A stretch of 64,000 nucleotides of DNA from Singulisphaera sp. GP187 (lineage in GTDB: Bacteria; Planctomycetota; Phycisphaerae; Phycisphaerales; SM1A02): assembly GCA_945862215.1 (NCBI GenBank), contig CAMAXY010000002.1, positions 62,001 through 126,000 on the forward strand, given 5' to 3'. This document shows positions 22,418 through 34,784 of this stretch, piece by piece (the stretch's first letter is position 1; the number at the start of each line of letters is the position of its first letter). A model generated the notes under the pieces. The model was given only the letters and a program-made list of their open reading frames with translations. It did no database searches and was not told the DNA's origin. Position numbers and translations under genes: made by a program.

Positions 22418-22490
22418 TGCTTGATTCCCCAGCTCGATTCTTTGTGTTGCAATGGTGTGCCGTGGACTGATTTGCCCTAAGGGCTCAAAC
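22418..22490 (+). repeat. Fragments of the interspersed repeat after deoC
   Basis: TGCTTGATTCC and AGCTCG at 22418-22436 resemble the 3' tail shared by the copies at 34.5 and 34.7 kb. The stretch 22461-22490 (CGTGGACTGATTTGCCC, GGGCTCAAACATG) repeats a motif found inside full units. This looks like the remnant of a further, partly deleted copy. Confidence 0.5.
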
Positions 22491-22853
22491 ATGCATGGAC
22501 TCAAAAGTGGTTCGTGCAGATTTTGGCAGTGGAATGATTTGCCCCCGGGCTTTGACATGCTGCGCGCTGAAATCCAGCGCGCCCTCCGGCGCGCGCCAAG
22601 ACAACTACGCGGACTCCGGCTCGGCTTGCAAACTCGCCGGGATCAAATCATTCCGCTGCCTATGCGAGCGAATCAAATTCTCGCTCGAACGTTTTTCAAA
22701 TTCCGTCTCGCATCCGTTTGCGTATCCAGCAGTTGAAAAATTCTGCCGGGCGAGTTCCGCAGGCGGCCGACTGAACTTGCAAACAAATTCGTTCAAACGG
22801 ATCGTGTCGGTCGCCGAGGACTGTCTGAGCCCGGCGGGATCTTTTCACGGCTG
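22491..22853 (+). repeat. Interspersed ~360-bp repeat, copy A
   Basis: Begins ATGCATGGACTCAAAAGTGG and ends GATCTTTTCACGGCTG. It matches copy B along its whole length with scattered substitutions and small indels. Conserved blocks include TTTGCCC(n)GGGC, CTTGCAAACTCGCCGGG, ATTCTGCCGGGCGAGTTCC and GTGTCGGTCGCCGAGGACTG. Three GCGCGC elements at about 22563-22599 can form alternative hairpins (GCGCGCTG/CAGCGCGC or GCGCGCC/GGCGCGC). ORFs through it shift frame between copies, so it is not protein-coding. Confidence 0.85.
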
Positions 22854-22860
22854 ATCTCTT

Positions 22861-23222
22861 ATGCATGGACTCAAATATGTTTCTTGCAGAATTTGGCAGT
22901 GGACTGAGTCGCCCTCGGGCTCAAACATGCTGCGCGCTGAAATCTAGCGCGCCCTCCGGCGCGCGCCAAGACAACTGCGCAGACTTGCTCGGCTTGCAAA
23001 CTCGCCGGGGTTCAAATCATTCCGCTGCCTATGCAAGCGAATCAAATTCTCACTCGAACGTTTTTCAAATTCCGTCTCGCATCTGTTTGCGTATCCAGCC
23101 GTTGGAAAATTCTGCCGGGCGAGTTCCGCAGGCAGCCGACGACACTTGTAACAAAATTTCGCAAACCGGATCGTGTCGGTCGCCGAGGACTGTTTGAGCC
23201 CGGCGGGATCTTTTCACGGCTG
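22861..23222 (+). repeat. Interspersed ~360-bp repeat, copy B
   Basis: Direct tandem neighbour of copy A, separated by 7 bp, same orientation and the same block order. The GCGCGC hairpin is kept with a C-to-T change that turns one pair into G-U (AGCGCGC arm). It ends 65 bp before the metalloprotease stop. Confidence 0.85.
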
Positions 23223-23287
23223 ATCACTTATGCATTTCCGCGGCTGTATCAGTATCAGTATCTGTATCCGTTGCTGTATCCATAACT

Positions 23288-25912
23288 CTAAGGCGTTCCC
23301 CATGATGCAAGCAAACTGGCGAGATCAGATCCATCAACAATTCCATTCAAATCAATATCGGCAATCGAATTCTGAGTGCCCCACGCAGCAAGCAATGTAG
23401 CGAGATCCAATCCATCAACATCTCCATTCAAATTCAAATCTCCATACGCACGTTCACATCGATCCGCCTTGCTGTCTGAATCTGTATCTCTGAAATGTAT
23501 TTCCACTCGCGCATCACCAACAAGAATTCCAGATCGTGCTTCTCGGTACGCACCAACCGCTGCGTACTCACCATGAACAGCGACGGCGAATCCAGCACGA
23601 ATCGGTCCACGATTCTCCCATCCCGATCCCGTCTGAACAAAATATTCGTGCGAACCATTACTCTCTGGAGTTGCCCATGAGCCGACAAACAATGCATCTC
23701 CATCAATCGCTACACGCGCACCAAATTTTCCATTATTGATTGACGATGCAGATAGAATTGTCTGCGTAAGTTGCCATTGCGAACCGCTCGGTTCAAAAAC
23801 AAAAGTTGCGCTTCCGCTGAGTGAAGATTGAAGTCCAGCGCCTGGCGCGCCAACAATTATTCGATTTCCACCGATCGCAACGGACGATCCCGCACGTCCG
23901 GCATTTGCGGGAATACCTCCCAGTCGCTCTGGATTCTGCCATCCAGTTCCTGTTCGCTGTGAAATATAGACGGCTCCAGTTTCGAAGCCGCCTTCGAGCG
24001 TGACATACGGCGCGCCAATCACGATGATTCCGTCTGAAACTGCAACTGATAATCCGAAATTGCCTTGGTTTGTTCCATCAAGAGGCTGAAGAATTTTTAC
24101 CATTTGCCAAACAGAATTGATCCGCTCAAAAACATAAGCGCGGCCGCGCTGAATAGCTCCACTATTCACAACTGTCTCAGGAGAACCAACAACAATCACA
24201 TCGCCTCGCATTGCAACAGATGCTCCAAATCGTCCCGCTGTTGTCGGGTTAGGAGAAATCAAAGTCGCTGTCAATTGCCAAGGTGCACCCGTTAATGACT
24301 TTGCGAAAACCGAAACATCTCCAGCGGCATTCAAACCCTGCACATCACGCGTCTCGCTACCAACCGCAATGAACGCGCCATCGACAGCAACTGATCGCCC
24401 AAAGAGATCCATTGAATTGGGATTTGTATGGCGCAGTGTCGTGACAAATTGCGTCGTGCTTCCAACAATTGAAAAGACGCTTGCACTTCCTGCAAAGTTG
24501 CCGCCAATATCATCGCCGTATGCACCGACCACTACGGTGTGTCCATCTGTATCCACGGCGTATCCATAAAAATTATCTGCGACGATGGCTTGCGATGGCA
24601 ATCCTGCGATCACACCACCTGGGCAGAGAAATCGAGAAGGGTCGTTGCAAATCGTCGTAGAAAGTAAATCGCATCGATCCAAAACTCCGTTTTCATCGCA
24701 ATCGCTTGCAGAACCATCTGCCAATTGCATGATGTCCACTCGACCATCTTGATCACAATCTCCAAATGAACCAGGCGGTGCGGAGCAACGAAATCCGCGT
24801 ATTGCTTGGTTGGTCAAGACGATTGATCCAGCATTGTCTCTCCCAGCATCTGAACCGCTCGGCGCAATTCCTGTTGGCGTGTTATCAAAATTGACTAGCG
24901 GATTTGAAAAATTATCAATTCGAGCTCCTGGGGAGTAAGCCATGACGGTTCGGTATTGCGTGCCACTCGATCCATTAAAGCGATGGCCAACTGATTGAGG
25001 AAAAAGTCCGCCGGTCGTGCAACCACCGCCATCGTTTGGTGCGTGGCAACATCCCATGTTGTGACCAAGTTCATGTGCGAATGTTTGACTCGACAAACAA
25101 CTCCACGCAGTCACACTGAAACCGATTCCAGAAACCGATGGATCATTCGCAGGCATCAAATATGCAATACCGCAATACTCGCCATTCGAACGAACCATTG
25201 CAACAAGATCTGCGCCTGACGCATCTCGGAGTTGATGAATCTCATCAAGAATTCCATCCCCTCCGCTGGCGAGCGTGTTGAGATCCGTTCCAAAGCTGAC
25301 TTCGGTGTATGGAATTTCAGTGTCGAAAACGACCCGAATGCGTGGCGCAATTTGGCTATTGGAATACGCTGCATTCGCACTTGTTTCTGCAAGATCGACG
25401 AGTGCTGCAAGCGGGCCAACTCCGCCGGCTTGTTCGCGCGCTGCGGGGGTGGTGATCACCAAGACATCGACCGTTGGAGCGTCGATACATCCTCCGGCGA
25501 TTCCGCCTTCAGCTTGACCATGCAATCCATTCCCAAGAAGTTCTTTGGGAGCTTCGACTGCTCCGGCACAATCTTGCATCGCTTCTGGCGGAAGAATTTC
25601 GAATTGCAATGGTTTTCCAGCCAAGCCGCGCGCTCCCCAGCGGATTCCAGACCCATCAACAAGAGTTGCGGCAAGAAATCCACTGCGCTCAACAACGATT
25701 GCTTGAATCGGTCCATCTTTATCGTTGCCAGTCAGAACGCAAGACCTTCGGCCTACGGAACGCTCGGTCACTTTGGAAGATGTGAAGTCAATTGCCCGAG
25801 GCCACTGCGCTTGGAGTCCATCCCACCCGGCAGCAACCTGAGGTGCTGAGGTATTTGTTTTCCCTGTCGCCTCCAAGCCCAAAACAAATAGGAGAGCGAA
25901 AGGAACAAACAT
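23288..25912 (-). CDS. Secreted metzincin protease with FG-GAP repeats and dockerin-like tail
   Basis: It encodes 874 aa. A signal peptide (MFVPFALLFVLGLEATG) starts the protein. The protease domain contains HELGHNMGCCH (~278-288), a full HExxHxxGxxH metzincin zinc site, and VMAYSPG as the Met-turn (~320), so reprolysin-like zinc peptidase activity is expected. Seven or so repeats with the pattern FGxSVAxxGxxIxVGSP (~450-800) form an FG-GAP beta-propeller. The C-terminus (~823-874) holds two dockerin-like calcium loops, DLNLNGDVDGLDLATLLAAWG and a second copy. The N-terminal ~120 residues are a probable propeptide. The start lies 2 bp after the stop of the glycine-rich gene, implying coupling. 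Confidence 0.88.
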   Translation of the reverse strand: MFVPFALLFVLGLEATGKTNTSAPQVAAGWDGLQAQWPRAIDFTSSKVTERSVGRRSCVLTGNDKDGPIQAIVVERSGFLAATLVDGSGIRWGARGLAGKPLQFEILPPEAMQDCAGAVEAPKELLGNGLHGQAEGGIAGGCIDAPTVDVLVITTPAAREQAGGVGPLAALVDLAETSANAAYSNSQIAPRIRVVFDTEIPYTEVSFGTDLNTLASGGDGILDEIHQLRDASGADLVAMVRSNGEYCGIAYLMPANDPSVSGIGFSVTAWSCLSSQTFAHELGHNMGCCHAPNDGGGCTTGGLFPQSVGHRFNGSSGTQYRTVMAYSPGARIDNFSNPLVNFDNTPTGIAPSGSDAGRDNAGSIVLTNQAIRGFRCSAPPGSFGDCDQDGRVDIMQLADGSASDCDENGVLDRCDLLSTTICNDPSRFLCPGGVIAGLPSQAIVADNFYGYAVDTDGHTVVVGAYGDDIGGNFAGSASVFSIVGSTTQFVTTLRHTNPNSMDLFGRSVAVDGAFIAVGSETRDVQGLNAAGDVSVFAKSLTGAPWQLTATLISPNPTTAGRFGASVAMRGDVIVVGSPETVVNSGAIQRGRAYVFERINSVWQMVKILQPLDGTNQGNFGLSVAVSDGIIVIGAPYVTLEGGFETGAVYISQRTGTGWQNPERLGGIPANAGRAGSSVAIGGNRIIVGAPGAGLQSSLSGSATFVFEPSGSQWQLTQTILSASSINNGKFGARVAIDGDALFVGSWATPESNGSHEYFVQTGSGWENRGPIRAGFAVAVHGEYAAVGAYREARSGILVGDARVEIHFRDTDSDSKADRCERAYGDLNLNGDVDGLDLATLLAAWGTQNSIADIDLNGIVDGSDLASLLASWGTP

Positions 25913-25914
25913 AA

Positions 25915-26385
25915 CTACATTCTAGGTGGGAAATCACGAGGTGCAAATGGTTTCGGCGGGAATTTCAATCTTTCTATAGCAACGCATGCACGCTCGACAT
26001 CTGCGAGTGCTGCACGGACTCTCCGCCACGGCGCAAAAATTGCATCAAGATCCAATTCTTTTGTGTGTTCAAGCACGCTTGTCGCTGGAATCTTTACACC
26101 TGGAGCTGATAACGCTTTTGTCGCATCTTCTAATTCACGAATCATTCGCTCGAGATCAGCACGAGCTGCGGCCAATCGCAAAGCAGTAGGCCGTGCGCGA
26201 GGCTCTCCATCTGTCTTCTTCCAAGAACCTGTTCGAGATGTATTGCCGCGTGGTGCACCACGACCGCCGCGTGATCCGCCAAATCCACCGCCGCGTGGTC
26301 CACCGCTCGAGCGGTCATCACCAGGCCCATCATTGTTGTTGGGATTTCCTTGCGGATAAAATGGACGATTTGGCGGGAGAGGCAT
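25915..26385 (-). CDS. Glycine/arginine-rich (RGG) N-terminal protein, unknown
   Basis: It encodes 156 aa from the ATG at 26385; a longer ORF start at 26448 adds a Cys/His-rich lead and collides with the divergent promoter. Residues ~1-20 are Pro/Asn-rich. Residues ~25-55 are a GGPRGGGFGGSRGGRGAPRG low-complexity RGG segment. The rest is helical (ALRLAAARADLERMIRELEDA; RVRAALADVERACVAIERL). There is no signal peptide. RGG tracts often bind RNA, but in planctomycetes such proteins are uncharacterised. The stop TAG is 2 bp before the metalloprotease ATG. Confidence 0.65.
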   Translation of the reverse strand: MPLPPNRPFYPQGNPNNNDGPGDDRSSGGPRGGGFGGSRGGRGAPRGNTSRTGSWKKTDGEPRARPTALRLAAARADLERMIRELEDATKALSAPGVKIPATSVLEHTKELDLDAIFAPWRRVRAALADVERACVAIERLKFPPKPFAPRDFPPRM

Positions 26386-26439
26386 AAAGAGCAATCGTAG
26401 AGACTCGCACCCAACTGTGGTATGACACTTCCCGTGAGA

Positions 26440-27354
26440 ATGACACAAACAACAATTGCGAAAATTGCGGTTGCGGGTTCTGTAGTCATTTTGGGGGTGA
26501 AACTGACGGCGTGGTGGCTAACTCGGTCTGATGCCGTGCTGTCGGATGCCCTCGAATCAATTGTGAATGTCGTTGCGAGCGTCATGACTTTGGGTGCAGT
26601 TCAACTTTCTGCGAAACCACCTGACGAAGATCACCCATACGGCCACGGACGGGTTGAATTTGTCAGCGCCGCAGTTGAAGGGGGGATGCTCATCGCAGCG
26701 GGAGCTTTTATTTTGATTCACTCAATTGGGTCGCTGATTGATCATTCACCACCGATTGAAAATGCACCTTGGGGAATTGCGCTTGTCGTCATTGGGGGAT
26801 TGATCAATCTGAGTCTTGCGTGGATGATGATTTCTATTGGGCGCCGCACAAACTCTGCTGCGTTGTTGGCGGATGGTGTTCACATTCTTTCTGATTCGCT
26901 GACCACCGCCGCGGTCATCGCTGGCCTGGTCATCATTCACTTCACAGGAATATGGTGGATCGATCCAGCGATTGCATTCATTCTGGGATGTCTGTTGATT
27001 TATATGGGATGGCATGTGGCAAGAAGTTCAGTCAATCGACTGATTGATTGCCAAGATGACGGCGACATTGAAAAGCTCCAGACACTTTTGAAAAGTCATT
27101 TGCCCAGCGGCGCAAACTCTCCGAAAATTTGCTCGTTTCATAAAGTTCGTTGCCGCCATGATGGAAGCATGCACTGGATTGATATGCATATTCAGTTGCC
27201 TGGAGAAATGAGTGTCGCGCAGAGCCATGACATTGCAACCGTGCTGGAAGTAGAAGCAATCGCCGCGCTTGGTGGCGCGGGGAATGCAACAGCTCACTGC
27301 GAGCCGTGCGAAGATTGTTCGTGCGATCTCAAACGATCTGCAAGTACGTCATAA
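26440..27354 (+). CDS. Cation diffusion facilitator (CDF) metal exporter
   Basis: It encodes 304 aa. It is a six-helix zinc/iron/cobalt proton antiporter of the inner membrane. LSDALESIVNVVAS (TM2 metal-site region), HPYGHGRVEFVSA (family HPxGHxRxE), LADGVHILSDSLTTAAVI (TM5 HxxxD) and the C-terminal cytoplasmic domain with CSFHKVRCRHDGSMHWIDMHIQLPG are diagnostic. The last residues are Cys-rich (CEPCEDCSCD), an unusual possible metal-binding tail. The start could be ATG 26422, GTG 26434 or ATG 26440; the last fits best. The 3' end overlaps the convergent membrane-protein gene by 61 bp. Confidence 0.88.
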   Translation: MTQTTIAKIAVAGSVVILGVKLTAWWLTRSDAVLSDALESIVNVVASVMTLGAVQLSAKPPDEDHPYGHGRVEFVSAAVEGGMLIAAGAFILIHSIGSLIDHSPPIENAPWGIALVVIGGLINLSLAWMMISIGRRTNSAALLADGVHILSDSLTTAAVIAGLVIIHFTGIWWIDPAIAFILGCLLIYMGWHVARSSVNRLIDCQDDGDIEKLQTLLKSHLPSGANSPKICSFHKVRCRHDGSMHWIDMHIQLPGEMSVAQSHDIATVLEVEAIAALGGAGNATAHCEPCEDCSCDLKRSASTS

Positions 27355-28196
27355 GAACCGCAAAATAGACCGACAAATTCTGGGAGGCCGCGGGTGAAGA
27401 GACCGATCAGATATCCGAAAATCGTTCCCCGAATCAATGCCCATGTTGCATAGAGCGCAACGACAGAGAGTGGCCCATTCTGCCGTCGAGTCATTCGCCA
27501 CGACTTTGCAATTGCGGGAAAAGCTCCCATTCGACCCGAAGCTGGATCGATGATTGCGATCCCTGCATAGACCAATCGAAACTGAAAATAGATACTGAGA
27601 AAAATGAACGGTATCCCAACGACCAGCACTGTCAACATGATCGTGACGATTTGACCTGTCGGATCGCCTTCATTCATTACTGAAATCAAGCTGACGACAA
27701 ATGACACAATGATCGCAACGACAATCCAAATCAAGAGCGGAATGAATCCAGACAGAATGAGAACGATCGAGAAGATTGAAAAATCCCAAGCGCGAAGATA
27801 TGGCGCAAAGAGATCGGATCGCTTGGGGGACTCGTTTCGAATCGCGCGCAATCCGATGAGTCCAGCTCCGTACGAAAATGGAAGAGCGACCAAAAGAAAA
27901 ATTACGACGCTGAAAAAAACATTTGAGATCGCCCCGCTCATCAAACCAGAAAGTTCTGTGATTGATTGCTCGCCAGAAAGATCAATTCCTTTGGTTGGAT
28001 CCGCCAAAAGATCTGCGAATGCAGCGTAAATTGCCATGAATGCTGGAACACCAGTCATGATCGCGGTGATCACTCCAGACCAAATCAGCGCAGCGCTCGG
28101 TCGAACGAGCGTGCCGCCAATTCGCTCTTGAATTTCACGAAGGAGCGTCGGTGGGTGGGTTGGCAAATTGATTGTTGTATTGATCTGTGAATCCAT
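27294..28196 (-). CDS. Polytopic membrane protein, paralogue of its upstream neighbour
   Basis: It encodes 300 aa with about six hydrophobic segments (ALIWSGVITAIMTGVPAFMAIYAAF, VFFSVVIFLLVALPFSYGAGLIGL, FSIFSIVLILSGFIPLLIWIVVAIIV, IVTIMLTVLVVGIPFIFL). The order, and the sequence YAGIAIIDPASGRMGAFPAIAKSWRMTRR, parallel the neighbour's LLVVVDESISARGPLACIEMSWKMTRGR, so the two are paralogues. This pattern recalls bacterial DUF975/DUF4013-type membrane proteins. The start overlaps the upstream gene by 62 bp, implying coupled translation. Function is unknown. Confidence 0.75.
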   Translation of the reverse strand: MDSQINTTINLPTHPPTLLREIQERIGGTLVRPSAALIWSGVITAIMTGVPAFMAIYAAFADLLADPTKGIDLSGEQSITELSGLMSGAISNVFFSVVIFLLVALPFSYGAGLIGLRAIRNESPKRSDLFAPYLRAWDFSIFSIVLILSGFIPLLIWIVVAIIVSFVVSLISVMNEGDPTGQIVTIMLTVLVVGIPFIFLSIYFQFRLVYAGIAIIDPASGRMGAFPAIAKSWRMTRRQNGPLSVVALYATWALIRGTIFGYLIGLFTRGLPEFVGLFCGSYDVLADRLRSHEQSSHGSQ

Positions 28197-28995
28197 CTCT
28201 ATTCAGCAACATGTTGTACGCCAATCCATACATCGTCAATGCGAGGGGATAGCCCAAGCCGATCACAGGCAGACAGCAAGCGAAAAAGGTCGCAAACGTC
28301 ATAATTCCCACCGTGATGAAAAGTCCTAGAAGAGAAAGTGCGCGACCTCGCGTCATCTTCCACGACATTTCAATACAAGCAAGTGGGCCACGCGCAGAGA
28401 TCGATTCATCGACAACGACAAGCAGTGCAAAGGATGTTCGCAGTCCGATCCAATACGTCAAAACCAAGCAAATTAAAGTCCAAGCACCAGCGCCGAGAAA
28501 GGCGGCCAAAGAAAAACTATCGAAGTCCTGTTGTTGAATGCCATCTTTAAATATTTCAAATCCAACCCCAAAGAAAATGATGGCTGCAAAAACGGCAAGC
28601 GCAAGTATCAAGGGGATCAGTATCAATATGTGAACCAACACGTATGTCCCCAAGACTGTTGGAAAACGGCGATACCCACGCAGAATATCCCCAATCGTCG
28701 GACTCTGTCCTCGCGCGGCGCGTAAGCCCATCCAAATCAGTCCTGCGAGAAGGGGAAGAAGAACAAAGATCGAATAAATCAATATGAAACATCCAACCCC
28801 CCCAGAAATTGCCGACCATGCCGGCTGGTCCGGATTTTTCTGCTGGCCAAAGAGCAGACCGTTCTGCGCGAGATTGCTGATTTGTGTTGGAATATTTGCG
28901 ACTAAAAAAATTACGACCCCAGCAGTCAGCATCAGCCAAGACTTCTTGTACATCACCCAGCTTTGGCCCCAGACATTTGTGAATGAATATTCCAT
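28135..28995 (-). CDS. Polytopic membrane protein (paralogue pair)
   Basis: It encodes 286 aa preceded by CTGGAGAA at ribosome-binding distance. It begins MEYSFTNVWGQSWVMYKKSWLMLTAG, with an amphipathic lead and then a first helix. It continues with FILIYSIFVLLPLLAGLIWMGL, YVLVHILILIPLILALAVFAAIIFFGVG and a late pair around LGLFITVGIMTFATFFACCLPVIGL. MSWKMTRGRALSLLGLF matches the paralogue below. The two likely form a heteromeric membrane unit of unknown role. The 28.1-29.0 kb pair lies 18 bp downstream of the ThuA gene and may belong to the same transcript. Confidence 0.75.
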   Translation of the reverse strand: MEYSFTNVWGQSWVMYKKSWLMLTAGVVIFLVANIPTQISNLAQNGLLFGQQKNPDQPAWSAISGGVGCFILIYSIFVLLPLLAGLIWMGLRAARGQSPTIGDILRGYRRFPTVLGTYVLVHILILIPLILALAVFAAIIFFGVGFEIFKDGIQQQDFDSFSLAAFLGAGAWTLICLVLTYWIGLRTSFALLVVVDESISARGPLACIEMSWKMTRGRALSLLGLFITVGIMTFATFFACCLPVIGLGYPLALTMYGLAYNMLLNRDGFTDQYNNQFANPPTDAPS

Positions 28996-29013
28996 TGTGT
29001 TCTCCAGAATTTA

Positions 29014-29793
29014 TTACTGAGCGGCCTTGCTTTGAATCGCCGCAGGCTTGACGGGTTTTTCTAATTTCGCGGCCCAAAGAATGCCTTGTTTCATGTGTTC
29101 ACGAAAGAGTGGATCTGCAAAAGATTCTTTTGTGTGACCCCCTGCGGTGTACCAACATCGTCCAGTTTTCATGTTGCGCCACCACATACAAGGATGATCG
29201 CCATCCATGCCGCCCCCTTCGAATGTCGATTCGTCCAATCGTGCAAGCACATGAATACCATCAACTTTGCGCGGATTTCGCTTGAATCGATACCACTCAT
29301 CGGTGCGTTGCCACTTCTCTGGCAACACTACGGTTGAAGGGTGCGAGCGATCTTCCACGATCACGGTTGCTTGTTGAATCGCTGGATGCCCAGCGAAATG
29401 CGCGCCAATCATTTCGTCATACCAAGCCCAATCATGCTCGGTATCACTTGCCGCATGGATGCCGGCAAAGCCGCCACCTGATTCGATGAATTCTTGGAAC
29501 GCTGCCTGTTGTCCATCATTCAACACATCGCCTGTGGTTGAAAGAAAAACAACGGTTCGATATTTCGCGAGGTTGTCCTTTGTGAAGAGTGCGCTGTCTT
29601 CGGTTTGATCGACATCAGCATCCTGTGCCATAACTTCGCGAACACATTTGATTCCATCTGGAATTGAATCGTGACGAAACGTTGCTGTCTTTGTGAATAC
29701 CAAAATTCGCGGCTTCGCCGTGGCATCATCAGCGCGCAAGGCAACGAAAGAAATCCCAGCAAGAATGAAAAGTGAAAGCGCGACTCGCAACAT
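29014..29793 (-). CDS. Exported ThuA-domain protein
   Basis: It encodes 259 aa from the ATG at 29793, chosen because GATACT lies 7 nt upstream and a signal peptide follows immediately (VALSLFILAGISFVALRA). The ThuA (trehalose-utilisation, GATase-like) domain reads ILVFTKTATFRHDSI, YRTVVFLSTTGDVLN, FQEFIESGGGFAGIHAASDTEHDW and HPCMWWRNMKTGRCWYTAGGH, the standard order of motifs. ThuA proteins are very abundant in planctomycetes, mostly of undefined sugar-related function; one class converts 3-keto-trehalose. It is 45 bp after the adaptor gene. Confidence 0.88.
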   Translation of the reverse strand: MLRVALSLFILAGISFVALRADDATAKPRILVFTKTATFRHDSIPDGIKCVREVMAQDADVDQTEDSALFTKDNLAKYRTVVFLSTTGDVLNDGQQAAFQEFIESGGGFAGIHAASDTEHDWAWYDEMIGAHFAGHPAIQQATVIVEDRSHPSTVVLPEKWQRTDEWYRFKRNPRKVDGIHVLARLDESTFEGGGMDGDHPCMWWRNMKTGRCWYTAGGHTKESFADPLFREHMKQGILWAAKLEKPVKPAAIQSKAAQ

Positions 29794-29800
29794 GCTTGCA

Positions 29801-29806
29801 AGTATC
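29801..29806 (-). promoter_or_regulatory. -10-like GATACT deciding the ThuA start
   Basis: On the minus strand GATACT ends 7 nt before the ATG at 29793, and a longer in-frame start lies upstream of it. The same hexamer at the same distance precedes the ALDH start at 37149. Confidence 0.4.
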
Positions 29807-29838
29807 GCACGAATGACTGAGGGCGACAAATGAAATGA

Positions 29839-31566
29839 TCAAGAACCAGTGACTGGTGAGTTTGCGATGGGTGGGACCACCTGCGTTTGATTCGTAGCGC
29901 CAGCCGGCTTACTTTTGGGTGCTCCACTGGTTTTCGTTGGGTCTTGTTCCTTCGGATTCGTCACTTCCGAAGGCAAACGAGAAACCACTTCTTCGGAAGT
30001 TGGTTCGCGTAGCAAAACTTGATCGCCTTCTTCGAGGCCGGTCATAACTTCGACATCCATTTCGCTTGATCTTCCTAGGGTGACTTGGCGCTGACTGAAG
30101 CCTTCGCTGTCTGGCACATAGACAAAGCTTGCGATGCCTTGGCGAAAGACAGCTTGCACTGGAATACTCAGCACATCAGTTGCTCGCCCAAGGAGAATCG
30201 AAGCTTTGCATCGCATGCTGGGCTTGAGACCAAGAGACTCGACATCATCGAGCAGCACGCGCACTTTGTAATCGCGACGATTTGGATCACGCCAACCACC
30301 ACTCTCTGCGAGCACGCTGACATTCATAACAGTCCCGCGAATTGGAACTGTTGGATTTGCATCACTGAAAATTGTCACTTCCTGATCTGGCTTAATCCGA
30401 CCGGAGAGTGCTTCGCTCACTTTCAAATACGCAACCATCTGCGAGACATCTGGAATGATCATCACTAATTCATTCGGTTTCAGTTCTGTTCCGATCGCTG
30501 GAGGTGGTGCATCACCACCACGACCCCAACCACCAGATTCCAAACTGCTTGAATAAACAACCAGGCCGTCGGTGGGAGAAATGATTGTTGTGTTTTCAAG
30601 TTGTCGTTGACCTTGGGTCAATCGCTCAAGCGCTGTCTTCGATCTGAATTGCGAACTCTCTAAATCAGATTGCGCTTTGACGATCTCTGAATTCTTTTTC
30701 TGTTCGGTTCGCTTTCGTTCAGCGAGAGCCTGCTCGACATCTGACATCTTCTTCGCTTCATCTTGAGGGCGTTGGAATTTTTCATACACCTCAATATCAA
30801 GCGCAGATTGCTTGACCTTCGCATCCGCTTGAATGAGGGCGATGCGATCCTTCTCGTATTCGTCGCGGCTGATGAATCCTTTCGCGACGAGCGATTCCGA
30901 TTCACCAAATCTTTTGCGTTGGCGATCCGCATCGATTGTCGCTGCTTCGATTGCAGTCGCCAAGAGTTGGCGCTTGGAGACGAGTTCTCCGTTTGTCCAT
31001 CCTTCGAGCGCCAACTGACTCAACTTCACCTGCAATTCTGCTTTTTCAATTTCACTTAAACGTTCATTCTGTTTGATTGCAAGTGCTTGCTCATTTGCGA
31101 CAGCTTCTGCCTGCGCGGTTTTCAACTTATCTTGCATGTCCTTGATCTTGTCAGTCGATTCTTCGCTGGCAAACTTCACCAAGACATCGCCCTTCTGAAC
31201 ACGTCGGCCTTCTGCAACAAGCTCGGTTATAACCGAACGCCCTTCGAGCAAATTGCGAACTTCAACTTGACGAAGCGCGGCGAGTTCTCCCGAGACAGGA
31301 ATGATCATGTCGAAATCCATTCGGTCCACCGCGTGCAATTCAAGACCATTAAAATTTCCACTGACAACTTCTGTTGCGCGTCGGGTCGACTTTGGAATCA
31401 ACATCCAAGTTGCGAGTGCTGCGATGACTACAGCGAACGAAATAAAGACCACTCGTCGACTCTGTCGCGCCTTCGTTGGTTTCCCCACGGGAGCATCCAG
31501 AGAACCATCGCCATTGGCAACTTCGCCAACCGATCCTTCTGGAGGTTGTTCAATCTCATTGGACAT
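29839..31566 (-). CDS. HlyD/MacA-type periplasmic adaptor protein
   Basis: It encodes 575 aa. A cytoplasmic lead of ~35 residues precedes one membrane helix (RRVVFISFAVVIAALATWMLI). MIIPVSGELAALRQVEVRNLLEGRSVI and VQKGDVLVKF form the lipoyl-like half. Long alpha-hairpin segments (~125-320; KIKDMQDKLKTAQAEAVANE, ERKRTEQKKNSEIVKAQSDLES) form the coiled coil. TTIISPTDGLVVYSSSLESGG completes the lipoyl domain, and beta-barrel and membrane-proximal domains follow. The C-terminus is Pro/Thr/Lys-rich. It lies 17 bp after the TolC gene. No ABC or RND inner-membrane pump is encoded next to it. Confidence 0.86.
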   Translation of the reverse strand: MSNEIEQPPEGSVGEVANGDGSLDAPVGKPTKARQSRRVVFISFAVVIAALATWMLIPKSTRRATEVVSGNFNGLELHAVDRMDFDMIIPVSGELAALRQVEVRNLLEGRSVITELVAEGRRVQKGDVLVKFASEESTDKIKDMQDKLKTAQAEAVANEQALAIKQNERLSEIEKAELQVKLSQLALEGWTNGELVSKRQLLATAIEAATIDADRQRKRFGESESLVAKGFISRDEYEKDRIALIQADAKVKQSALDIEVYEKFQRPQDEAKKMSDVEQALAERKRTEQKKNSEIVKAQSDLESSQFRSKTALERLTQGQRQLENTTIISPTDGLVVYSSSLESGGWGRGGDAPPPAIGTELKPNELVMIIPDVSQMVAYLKVSEALSGRIKPDQEVTIFSDANPTVPIRGTVMNVSVLAESGGWRDPNRRDYKVRVLLDDVESLGLKPSMRCKASILLGRATDVLSIPVQAVFRQGIASFVYVPDSEGFSQRQVTLGRSSEMDVEVMTGLEEGDQVLLREPTSEEVVSRLPSEVTNPKEQDPTKTSGAPKSKPAGATNQTQVVPPIANSPVTGS

Positions 31567-31583
31567 ATATAAAGCCTATCGGT

Positions 31584-33368
31584 TCAGACCGATGGAATCC
31601 CTACTGGTTGTGCAAGAATTCCAGATCCGCGTCTATATCGGACCTCCATGCCGTCTGGAGCGATAATTTCCCCATCATCAGAGACTCGCAATTGACCAGT
31701 TTGCCGTAAAAATTCCAATATTGCGATCTGAACCTCGCGAAGAGCCCGAGCCTTTTCGTTTTCCGCAGAATTGAGAGCGTCAACTGCTTCCGTGCGATCA
31801 CGGGGAGTCGCACGATCTGGAGCAGCATCAATGCTGCCCTGACGATTACGGGCGATATCAATATTTTTGTCCTGCAACGAGAGGGTGTACAGCGCGCGAT
31901 CGATACGTCTGATTGCTTGTCGAACTTCGACCGCGGCAGTGTTCTTTGCAAAAACAAATCGCCGATCATTCTGTTCGAGAATCACTTGTGCTTTGCGGAC
32001 ATTCACTTCTTCGATCGTGCGATCGAGCGGAAGATCGATCGCGATTCCAATTGTGTAATTGCCAAAAGAATCGTCTAACTGAATACCGTTGAAAAAATCT
32101 GGGTTCTTTAATAGTGATGCAGTCGCAAAGATGTCTGCACCTGCAAGAACCAAATTGCGCGCGTTGTCAACTTGACGCCGTGCATCTGCGACTAAGTCGC
32201 GCGTATTTTGTAAGTCGAGGCGCCACTCGAATGCATTCGCAATTGATCGTTCATTGTTGATGATCGGCGGATCGAGGTCGAGCATTTCGGTATCGATGAC
32301 AACTGGCGCGTCAGTCTGATATCCAATTCGCAACTTGAAACGATCGACAGCCAGTTTGTAGGTTTCTTCGAGTGAAGCAAGTCGATCGATGACGAAGAGG
32401 GCGCGCTGCTTTGCTAAGTCAGCTTGAAAGGCAACTTGCCGACCGCTGGACACTAATGCGTCTTCGCGGTCGACAATTGATCGCAGCCCATTGATTTGAT
32501 TTCGTGTATTCGAGATAACTTGTTGCTGAACCACCAAATCGTGAAAATCACTGAAAATTGCGACATAAAAGCGGCGACGGAACTCTTCGAATGCGCGGGC
32601 ACCATAAACCAAATTTCGCTTCGCTTGAATCAAACCTTCTTGCGCGATCAAGCCCGCACCGCGAAGCAGGGGGATGTCCAAAGAAAGCGCAATATCCAAA
32701 GAACTTGCTTGGCCCGTTTGAACAGCGTTACTCAGTTCGTTTGATGCTTGGGCGAGAATGTTTGCGCTGACTTGACCTCCATACGGAAGTTTTTGACTCA
32801 CATTCAGATCATTCACTAACTGAAGTGCTGTTGATTGTGTTCCGTTCAGCGAGACGCCTTGAAATTGTGGAGAAACGGTATTAAAAATTCGCGGGCTCCA
32901 GATGTGCTGCTGAATGAGCAGGTCAAGCGCAAGTAATAAATATGTTTCTTCCGCGACGCGATATTCCAAACTTTTCTTTATGGCGAATTGCACGCTCTTG
33001 GCAAGATTGAAGTGCTCTGCGTTTGTCGGTGGAGCGTATGCTTTCGTCACATCGGCGATGACTTTGTCGACATCGAGTACCGCGCGAGGACGAGCCTGAT
33101 ACTTCAGATCCTCCGGCTTTGGGTTTGCCGTTGGTGGTTCATTGAGACCTGGATAATCGGGAGTGAAATTCTGACCTTGATATTGCGATTCCGATTTACT
33201 TATCGTGGGAACGCTTGAGGGTTCGCCGATAGATTCACTTGTTGTGCGCAGACGATCTTCCGCATTGCTATCGATGACATGAAATTCCTGCTCTTGGCAG
33301 GCGATCGGGATGATCGCCAGCAGTGCAAAAATTGCGCAGGCCAGGATTGAATTGATGTGGCGAGACAT
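31584..33368 (-). CDS. TolC-family outer-membrane efflux lipoprotein
   Basis: It encodes 594 aa. The ATG at 33368 starts a lipoprotein-type signal: ILACAIFALLAIIPIAC ends in the acylated Cys (~25). Its own -10-like TACTCT lies 11 nt upstream. The mature part has two helical-hairpin repeats of the OEP family (LDLLIQQHIWSPRIFNTVSPQF; NDLNVSQKLPYGGQVSANI; LSLDIPLLRGAGLIAQEGLIQAKRNL; IGIAIDLPLDRTIEEVNVRKAQVILEQND). It would provide the outer-membrane channel for the HlyD adaptor encoded 17 bp downstream. A longer ORF start at 33452 is disfavoured because it precedes the lipobox. Confidence 0.86.
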   Translation of the reverse strand: MSRHINSILACAIFALLAIIPIACQEQEFHVIDSNAEDRLRTTSESIGEPSSVPTISKSESQYQGQNFTPDYPGLNEPPTANPKPEDLKYQARPRAVLDVDKVIADVTKAYAPPTNAEHFNLAKSVQFAIKKSLEYRVAEETYLLLALDLLIQQHIWSPRIFNTVSPQFQGVSLNGTQSTALQLVNDLNVSQKLPYGGQVSANILAQASNELSNAVQTGQASSLDIALSLDIPLLRGAGLIAQEGLIQAKRNLVYGARAFEEFRRRFYVAIFSDFHDLVVQQQVISNTRNQINGLRSIVDREDALVSSGRQVAFQADLAKQRALFVIDRLASLEETYKLAVDRFKLRIGYQTDAPVVIDTEMLDLDPPIINNERSIANAFEWRLDLQNTRDLVADARRQVDNARNLVLAGADIFATASLLKNPDFFNGIQLDDSFGNYTIGIAIDLPLDRTIEEVNVRKAQVILEQNDRRFVFAKNTAAVEVRQAIRRIDRALYTLSLQDKNIDIARNRQGSIDAAPDRATPRDRTEAVDALNSAENEKARALREVQIAILEFLRQTGQLRVSDDGEIIAPDGMEVRYRRGSGILAQPVGIPSV

Positions 33369-33379
33369 GGCGAAGTCAA

Positions 33380-33385
33380 AGAGTA
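33380..33385 (-). promoter_or_regulatory. -10-like TACTCT upstream of the TolC gene
   Basis: On the minus strand TACTCT lies 11 nt before the ATG at 33368, predicting a leader of only ~4 nt for the TolC-HlyD(-ThuA) transcript. It matches the box upstream of the yggS-type gene. Confidence 0.35.
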
Positions 33386-33452
33386 CGCTGAGGAGCGATT
33401 GGATTTTTAGTTGGAAGAAAACAAGATTTGGATTGAAATGGTGATTCAGCAT

Positions 33453-34182
33453 TGTCTGCGATATGTCACAGATAACGATCTACACTTCACAATTTATTTT
33501 CGGCGAAGTTTAATGTCATTTTATGTATTTTTATTGATTTTCGGCGAAAATGATTAATAAGAACTCTAATTTATGTCGACAACTGGCAAGAGTGATCGAA
33601 TTTCGCAGAAGTTTGGCTATATATCGACCACAAACAAGGTAAAATCGTTTTTGTTCGTCTATCTTCGGTGAAATTGTATCGATAGTGGTTAAAAACTCAA
33701 AAAGCACAAAGCCCCGCAATCGCAGGGCCTTGAGCCGTAATCCCCAATCCATTTTGGTGCCGTCACGCGCACCGTGTTCCATTTCCTTCCCATCAATCCC
33801 GTTCCACACTCCAAATCCTTTTCCTATCCTCCTAAATGTCCATTTTCCTATCCTACAACCCTTACTTCCCGATCTCCGAATGGTGGGGCTCCGAGAAAAC
33901 TCGCCCAGCCCATTCATTCGTCAGAACCGGCTCCGAACTACTCGCCTAGCCGGCTCTATCCCAACGAGTTCGAGAATGTCAGGGGGTTTCCCCGTTCCTT
34001 AATGCGGTCGGATGTAAGCGCTTGGCGCAATCTCGTCTGCTGAACGGGGCGCCTCTTGGATTCTCTAACACAATAAATATCAATTACAAAGCGACGCGTT
34101 GCAAGTCAAAGTCCACATTTTTTAAAAATGGCATTGCTGGAGTAATAGAGTGGATTTTGAAGCAAATCAGGTGGGCTCAAAC
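33453..34182. other. Non-coding accessory stretch without recognised genes
   Basis: No ORF here has convincing protein character. It holds an AT-rich part (33453-33690), a terminator-like hairpin (33708-33731), a pyrimidine-rich tract (33775-33870) with TTTTCCTATCCT present twice, and GC-richer sequence up to the repeat at 34183. Base composition changes abruptly along it. It looks like eroded mobile or duplicated DNA at the edge of the repeat block. Confidence 0.6.
33708..33731 (-). terminator. Terminator-like hairpin left of the repeat block
   Basis: On the minus strand AAGGCCCTGC-GATT-GCGGGGCTTT forms a 10-bp imperfect stem and is followed by GTGCTTTTTGAGTTTTT. It would stop transcripts coming from the repeat block or from the ALDH pair about 1 kb upstream. 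Confidence 0.5.
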
Positions 34183-34525
34183 ATGCATGGACTCAAAAGT
34201 GGATGGACTCAAAAGTGGTTCGTGCAGGATTTGGCAGCGGACCGATTTGCCCCCGAGCTCAAACATGCTGCGCCGAGCTGCGCAGACTTGCTCGGCTTGC
34301 AAACTCGCCGGGGTTCAAATCATTCCGCGGCCCACGTTGGCGAATCAAATTCTCGCTCGAACGTTTTTCAGATTCCGTCTCGCGTCTGCTTGCGTGCCCA
34401 GCCGCTGGAAAGTTCTCTCGGGCGAGTTCCGCAGGCGGCCGACGGAACTTGTAATCAAACTTCGAAACCCAGATCGTGTCGGTCGCCGAGGACTGTCTGA
34501 GCCCCGAGAGGACTTTTCACGGCTG
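34183..34525 (+). repeat. Interspersed ~360-bp repeat, copy C
   Basis: Same block order and orientation as copies A and B, 11 kb away. It begins with a tandem duplication of ATGGACTCAAAAGTGG and lacks the GCGCGC hairpin block, which is replaced by CTGCGC-cgagct-GCGCAG. The later blocks (CTCGCTCGAACGTTTTTCA, GTGTCGGTCGCCGAGGACTG, TTTTCACGGCTG) are well kept. After it comes CCAACAAAATGCTGC, shared with copy D. Confidence 0.85.
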
Positions 34526-34586
34526 CCAACAAAATGCTGCTTGATTCCGTGGCTCGAATCTGTGGCTGATGCCGTCGCACTTCAAC

Positions 34587-34721
34587 TTGCGTATCCAGCC
34601 GTTGAAAAATTCTGCCGGGCGAGTTCCACAGGCGGCCACGGCACTTGTAACAAAACTTCGTAAACCAGATCGTGTCGGTCGCCGAGGACTGTCTGAGCCC
34701 GGCAGGATCTTTTCACGGCTG
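34587..34721 (+). repeat. Interspersed repeat, copy D (3' third only)
   Basis: Contains only the 3' part of the unit, from TGCGTATCCAGCCGTTG to TTTTCACGGCTG. It is followed, as copy C is, by CCAACAAAATGCTGC, TGATTCCGT-like and GCTCG sequence. It ends 64 bp before the stop of the second ALDH gene. Confidence 0.8.
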
Positions 34722-34784
34722 CCAACAAAATGCTGCTCGATTCCGTCGCTCGATTCTCGCTTAACCTCGCAATCAAAACGAGCC

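Follow-up and report, generated by a model that had tools for sequence, protein, structure and literature searches.

A paired-hairpin repeat with a conserved internal-loop core, probably a non-autonomous mobile element, in a planctomycete genome and in other phyla

The ~360-bp repeat analyzed here is probably a non-autonomous, structured mobile hairpin, which is REPIN-like but not a REPIN. Its copies share one structure and a conserved core, show wobble pairs biased to one strand, reach high copy numbers, fill gaps between genes that are nearly empty in relatives, and form inverted pairs in several phyla. A mobile element is argued for by the amplification, the near-empty and filled sites, the inverted pairing and the patchy distribution taken together. 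The original prediction, made for a window of 64,000 nucleotides (the whole stretch of DNA that was analyzed), was partly supported.

Anatomy, position and copy number of the repeat

Four copies, A to D, with a common block order and one orientation had been described in the window, and comparison with unit A confirmed all of them. Unit B is 90% identical to A in the same order and orientation, and copy C (34200-34525) is 76% identical to A. Copy D (86% identity) is indeed partial and corresponds to no more than the right-hand 154 bp of A, and it starts at about 34569, not at 34587. The right-hand block T (positions 237-363 of A) is a single palindrome, CAGCCGTTG...CACGGCTG, which folds at -59 to -63 kcal/mol. 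In its stem, CAGCCGTTGGAAAGTTCTCTCGGGC pairs with GCCCCGAGAGGACTTTTCACGGCTG; beyond this come an asymmetric loop and a short helix, then another loop and a third helix, and finally a tip that varies. A second T subfamily has CTGCC/GGCGG in place of CTCTC/GAGAG. The hairpin H on the minus strand carries the same core as T. The two are thus related hairpins, which the ~360-bp unit combines in inverted orientation: H (minus strand, ~138 bp), a spacer of ~65 bp, and T of 127 bp on the plus strand. The core common to both, GCGAGUU-n4-AG ... CGAG-n2-4-UGUYUGAGC, forms an internal loop. The units and their parts in the window are as follows.

22418-22490, plus strand: left fragment, an unrelated start followed by a partial 70-bp left module (GGACTGATTTGCCC..GGGCTCAAAC), assigned from the sequence and from tandem 70-bp modules at other loci
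22491-22853, plus strand: unit A, consisting of H hairpin, spacer and T hairpin; fold of -158.5 kcal/mol, z = -5.95 relative to dinucleotide shuffles
22524-22661, minus strand: H hairpin of unit A, whose variable tip bears the GCGCGC stems; detected with covariance model R2 run with filters off (E = 3.8e-4 in 13 kb)
22727-22853, plus strand: T hairpin of unit A; R2 80.4 bits and predicted fold
22750-22762, plus strand: 5' side of the conserved core, GCGAGTTCCGCAG, in T of unit A; (nearly) invariant in 45 aligned copies
22815-22830, plus strand: 3' side of the conserved core, CGAGGACTGTCTGAGC, in T of unit A; (nearly) invariant in the same 45 copies
22861-23222, plus strand: unit B, consisting of H, spacer and T; from comparison with A
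22894-23030, minus strand: H hairpin of unit B; R2 16.9 bits, E = 0.042, weak alone, with the core GCGAGUUUGCAAG..UGUUUGAGC readable
23096-23222, plus strand: T hairpin of unit B; R2 77.0 bits
23223-23281, plus strand: tail in which short repeats akin to (TATCCGTGGCTG)n run to the stop of the convergent gene; from a 3'-end listing of all copies
34183-34525, plus strand: unit C, consisting of H with a shortened tip, spacer and T; from the sequence and comparison with A
34232-34333, minus strand: H hairpin of unit C; R2 28.7 bits, E = 7.6e-5
34399-34525, plus strand: T hairpin of unit C; R2 83.8 bits
34569-34721, plus strand: unit D, T hairpin (34596-34721) and a short left flank only; comparison with A, R2 79.3 bits

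This anatomy revises several details. A terminal inverted repeat had been reported missing; T on its own is a palindrome, and H, a hairpin of the same family, lies inverted to it, so that inverted repeats are the main feature. The GCGCGC stems, whose loss in C was correctly recognized, are the variable tip of H, and TTTGCCC(n)GGGC, described as a hairpin of its own, belongs to the H stem. No reading frame is open across all copies, in agreement with the view that the repeat is not protein-coding. Besides H and T, the loci contain a GCCGCGGGACGC module, 70-bp left modules in tandem, and tails made up of a 12-bp repeat. Some elements contain a separate hairpin module, GAAATGGGCAAC..GTTGCCCATTTC (loci L014, L017, L019, L029, L037, L040), and T is flanked by runs of the 12-bp repeat that resemble the hairpin's own end (window 23223-23281 and the tails of many copies).

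The four copies are those of the window; the family is much larger. Within its own genome (112 contigs, 2.79 Mb in total), unit A had 80 BLAST matches, which merge to ~40 loci, and at least 57 copies of the core are present. The fetched loci hold 56 full T copies and a partial one, to which a later covariance model added one more; this count is a lower bound because several contigs end inside copies. Using codon-scored ORFs, whose calls are heuristic, 24 of 32 element-bearing gaps were classified as convergent compared to 8 of 76 element-free gaps (Fisher p = 8e-11). Stop codons are often only tens of bases away from an element.

Conservation of the fold and occurrence across bacteria

The prediction of a structured element was borne out by covariation. 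Both sides had changed in 20 of 32 pairs in alignment A3, 23 of 28 in A4 and 24 of 28 in A5 (99 sequences), and 92-97% of the cells were paired compared to 27-51% after sliding the partners. The fitting of these alignments to the models favors structure. In a check independent of such fitting, the 22-nt arms flanking the core pattern paired at a median of -33.2 kcal/mol, compared to -13.2 kcal/mol with partners swapped between loci. The first pair count had shown no double changes because close relatives had been aligned without structure; the wider alignments show them. While the stems are rewritten, the internal loops stay fixed. G-U cells outnumbered A-C cells by 48:8, and by 79:11 in well-aligned pairs, with a weaker excess in the unfiltered A5 alignment (119:69). 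This excess indicates that one strand folds, namely the plus strand of the hairpin, and the data fit an RNA and a folded single DNA strand alike.

BLASTN and covariance searches, as proposed originally, revealed further copies in the genome and in relatives. Of 41 related genomes, 13 had BLASTN matches to the unit, and these belong to two genera only. Covariance model R1, derived from 45 copies of T, detected up to eight copies above threshold in one other genus of the family, and model R2 extended the hairpin to three further families of the phylum, with nine copies in one genome. The majority of the ~800 genomes searched with the models contained no copies. A pattern of the core alone matched at least 120 stretches in public genomes, nearly all of which score with R2. 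By record title, and among the matches listed, they come from Coriobacteriia, Lachnospiraceae, Myxococcales, Vicinamibacteraceae, Omnitrophota, Planctomycetota, Krumholzibacteriota, Chloroflexi, Gemmatimonadetes, Bdellovibrio and a betaproteobacterium, which on the same basis places the hairpin in about ten phyla besides its own. Many of these records are metagenome-assembled genomes that may be misbinned; Adlercreutzia, Senegalimassilia, Olsenella and Plesiocystis are named strains. The idea that the repeat is typical of its lineage is therefore wrong for the core, and the 360-bp two-hairpin version alone is genus-restricted. IMG/VR pattern matches (L254, L305, L306) were considered as a sign of phage carriage and rejected, since they had neither the outer stem nor a model match.

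Adlercreutzia genomes contain 36, 49 (A. caecimuris) and 32 (A. equolifaciens) copies. No replication-strand bias was evident by eye from the listed strands in A. hattorii. A palindrome like CTCAACCATGGTTGAG often comes before the hairpin in Adlercreutzia (L292, L297, L290 of A. hattorii). Hairpins less than 1 kb apart outside the window were oriented (-,+) in seven cases and (+,+) in two, never (+,-) or (-,-). In a Myxococcales metagenome-assembled genome, an apparent acetyltransferase-like gene lies inside an inverted hairpin pair (L153:1990-2862).

Filled and nearly empty sites, and a possible host function

Mobility, also proposed originally, is supported in its apparent form by the copy number and by orthologous gaps that are either filled or nearly empty. 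The gap between deoC and a dockerin gene measures 18-50 nt in seven sister species and 843 nt in G000, 884 nt in G012, 557 nt in G002 and 297 nt in G016, with a different mix and order of modules in each of these four; in G015 it contains a diverged hairpin and is 255 nt long. In Adlercreutzia, for example, a filled site measures 241-265 nt (L135, L140, L286) and its unfilled counterpart 68-76 nt (L225). Some Adlercreutzia copies occupy the same site in five species, where their stems have been rewritten. Five Coriobacteriia loci that share an orthologous site show compensated stem changes around a fixed core. The hairpin tip comes in two interchangeable kinds in A. hattorii (L285-L304), and one site bears different tips in different species.

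The main rival to a mobile hairpin is a structured RNA that serves the host at gene ends or between genes, by stabilizing mRNA, ending transcription or binding a protein. The retention of Adlercreutzia copies with compensated stems fits such a function and counts against mobility; the conservation of core and structure across phyla, the wobble pairs favoring one strand and the preference for convergent gene ends agree with it as well. However, close sister species do not have the element at the same gene pair, the hairpins are in mixed orientation relative to the adjoining genes in Adlercreutzia, and the arrays and the turnover of modules count against it as well. A standard terminator is contradicted by the T-run, which in the genus lies inside the stem and not 3' of it. 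We consider a host function rather unlikely. Against the mobile hairpin stands that neither an excision product, an autonomous partner nor a linked transposase was found and that no target-site duplication, which a MITE of a DDE transposon would show along with a parent transposon, was evident by eye in the flanks, consistent with the original observations on duplications and transposases. A recurrent neighboring gene was not evident either, the protein clusters being mostly ORFs that overlap the repeats.

Relation to known elements and implications

The repeat shares with REPINs and BIMEs (PMC3116915) the intergenic position, the inverted pairs of palindromes, the many copies, the tandem clusters and the non-autonomous nature. 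Together with Y1 genes in 8 of 19 tested hosts, these features would suit an ordinary REP/REPIN family that owes its mobility to a RAYT (Y1) transposase. It differs in its conserved internal-loop core and in units of 95-190 bp instead of 20-40 bp (model-matched length 95-145 bp, longer with the outer stem). Neither G000 nor any of the 18 further genomes of the genus has Y1_Tnp (PF01797). The family is also missing from 11 of the 19 tested hosts, and A. caecimuris and A. equolifaciens lack it despite their 49 and 32 copies. The tags GTAG and CGTC each occurred at the hairpin feet in 13 of 183 rows, with ~14 expected by chance. Thus, three hallmarks of REPs (Y1, tag and length) are missing, whereas inverted doublets are present, as H(-)/T(+) in the window and in seven of nine close pairs elsewhere. 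The RAYT reading is largely refuted and very improbable, and a RAYT/IS200 Y1 transposase is unlikely as the mover in this genus.

Like attC sites and the attC-like OTH-22-1 (PMC8632094), the repeat forms imperfect, strand-specifically folded hairpins with unpaired conserved bases in several phyla. Two of the three hairpins of G930 lie within 2.3 kb of an integron integrase on either side of one gene, which would suit recombination sites of integrons. Yet the boxes RYYYAAC/GTTRRRY were found at both feet in 0 of 183 rows, 18 of 19 hosts had no integron integrase above the cut-off (G930 being the exception), and this genome has no cassette arrays, so that we see scarcely any prospect for an attC-like identity. 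At G930 C24:7718-10941 (L201, L206), same-orientation hairpins flank a porin-like gene next to a full integrase, a possible cassette-like layout. Neutral palindromes of no selected function could stay perfect through template switching between their arms. Such switching could rewrite both arms together and would suit stems that vary freely between orthologs, but it would also erase the mismatched, asymmetric loops, the most conserved part, so that this reading is disfavored and most improbable.

Rfam contained no match at gathering or relaxed E-values, and the core sequence had no match in paper texts. ERIC sequences are ~127-bp imperfect palindromes, intergenic and with no known transposase, like the repeat here, but enterobacterial, unlike it. 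BOX elements have a modular make-up, as seen here. BOX of Streptococcus pneumoniae (PMC3049150) likewise consists of small interspersed structured repeats, which are probably parasitic and can affect co-transcribed genes; by what was compared it is unrelated, and it is nearly confined to pneumococcus and S. mitis, whereas the core described here spans phyla. The repeat also resembles the MRSC class of Narunsky et al. (2024; PMC11109978), above all MRSC-65-2, a single long covarying stem found in diverse phyla with dozens of copies per genome and regarded as selfish, but the conserved UYCCGG repeat of MRSC-65-2 occurred twice on one strand in only 1 of 183 rows here. The paper lists 250 mobile or repeat candidates, and our repeat may already be among them.

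For the mobile hairpin, we envisage two inverted hairpins, H on the minus strand and T on the plus strand separated by the spacer, each of which would fold single-stranded and present the same fixed internal-loop core. A trans-acting protein would probably recognize this core, the folded form would be used for movement, and amplification would be transposition. Copies would have been inserted into intergenic DNA, in the genus mostly between convergent genes, where their modules would subsequently be shuffled, duplicated and lost. Tentatively, the hairpins might even represent a multi-phylum selfish class whose fixed core is read by an enzyme that is neither Y1/RAYT nor an integron integrase. 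The structured hairpin with its near-invariant loop core recurs in many phyla and multiplies within genomes, and it provides a defined sequence bait, with Adlercreutzia, Plesiocystis and Olsenella as cultured hosts, for finding the protein that would read it. The analysis also accounts for a repeat that breaks the assembly of these planctomycete genomes.
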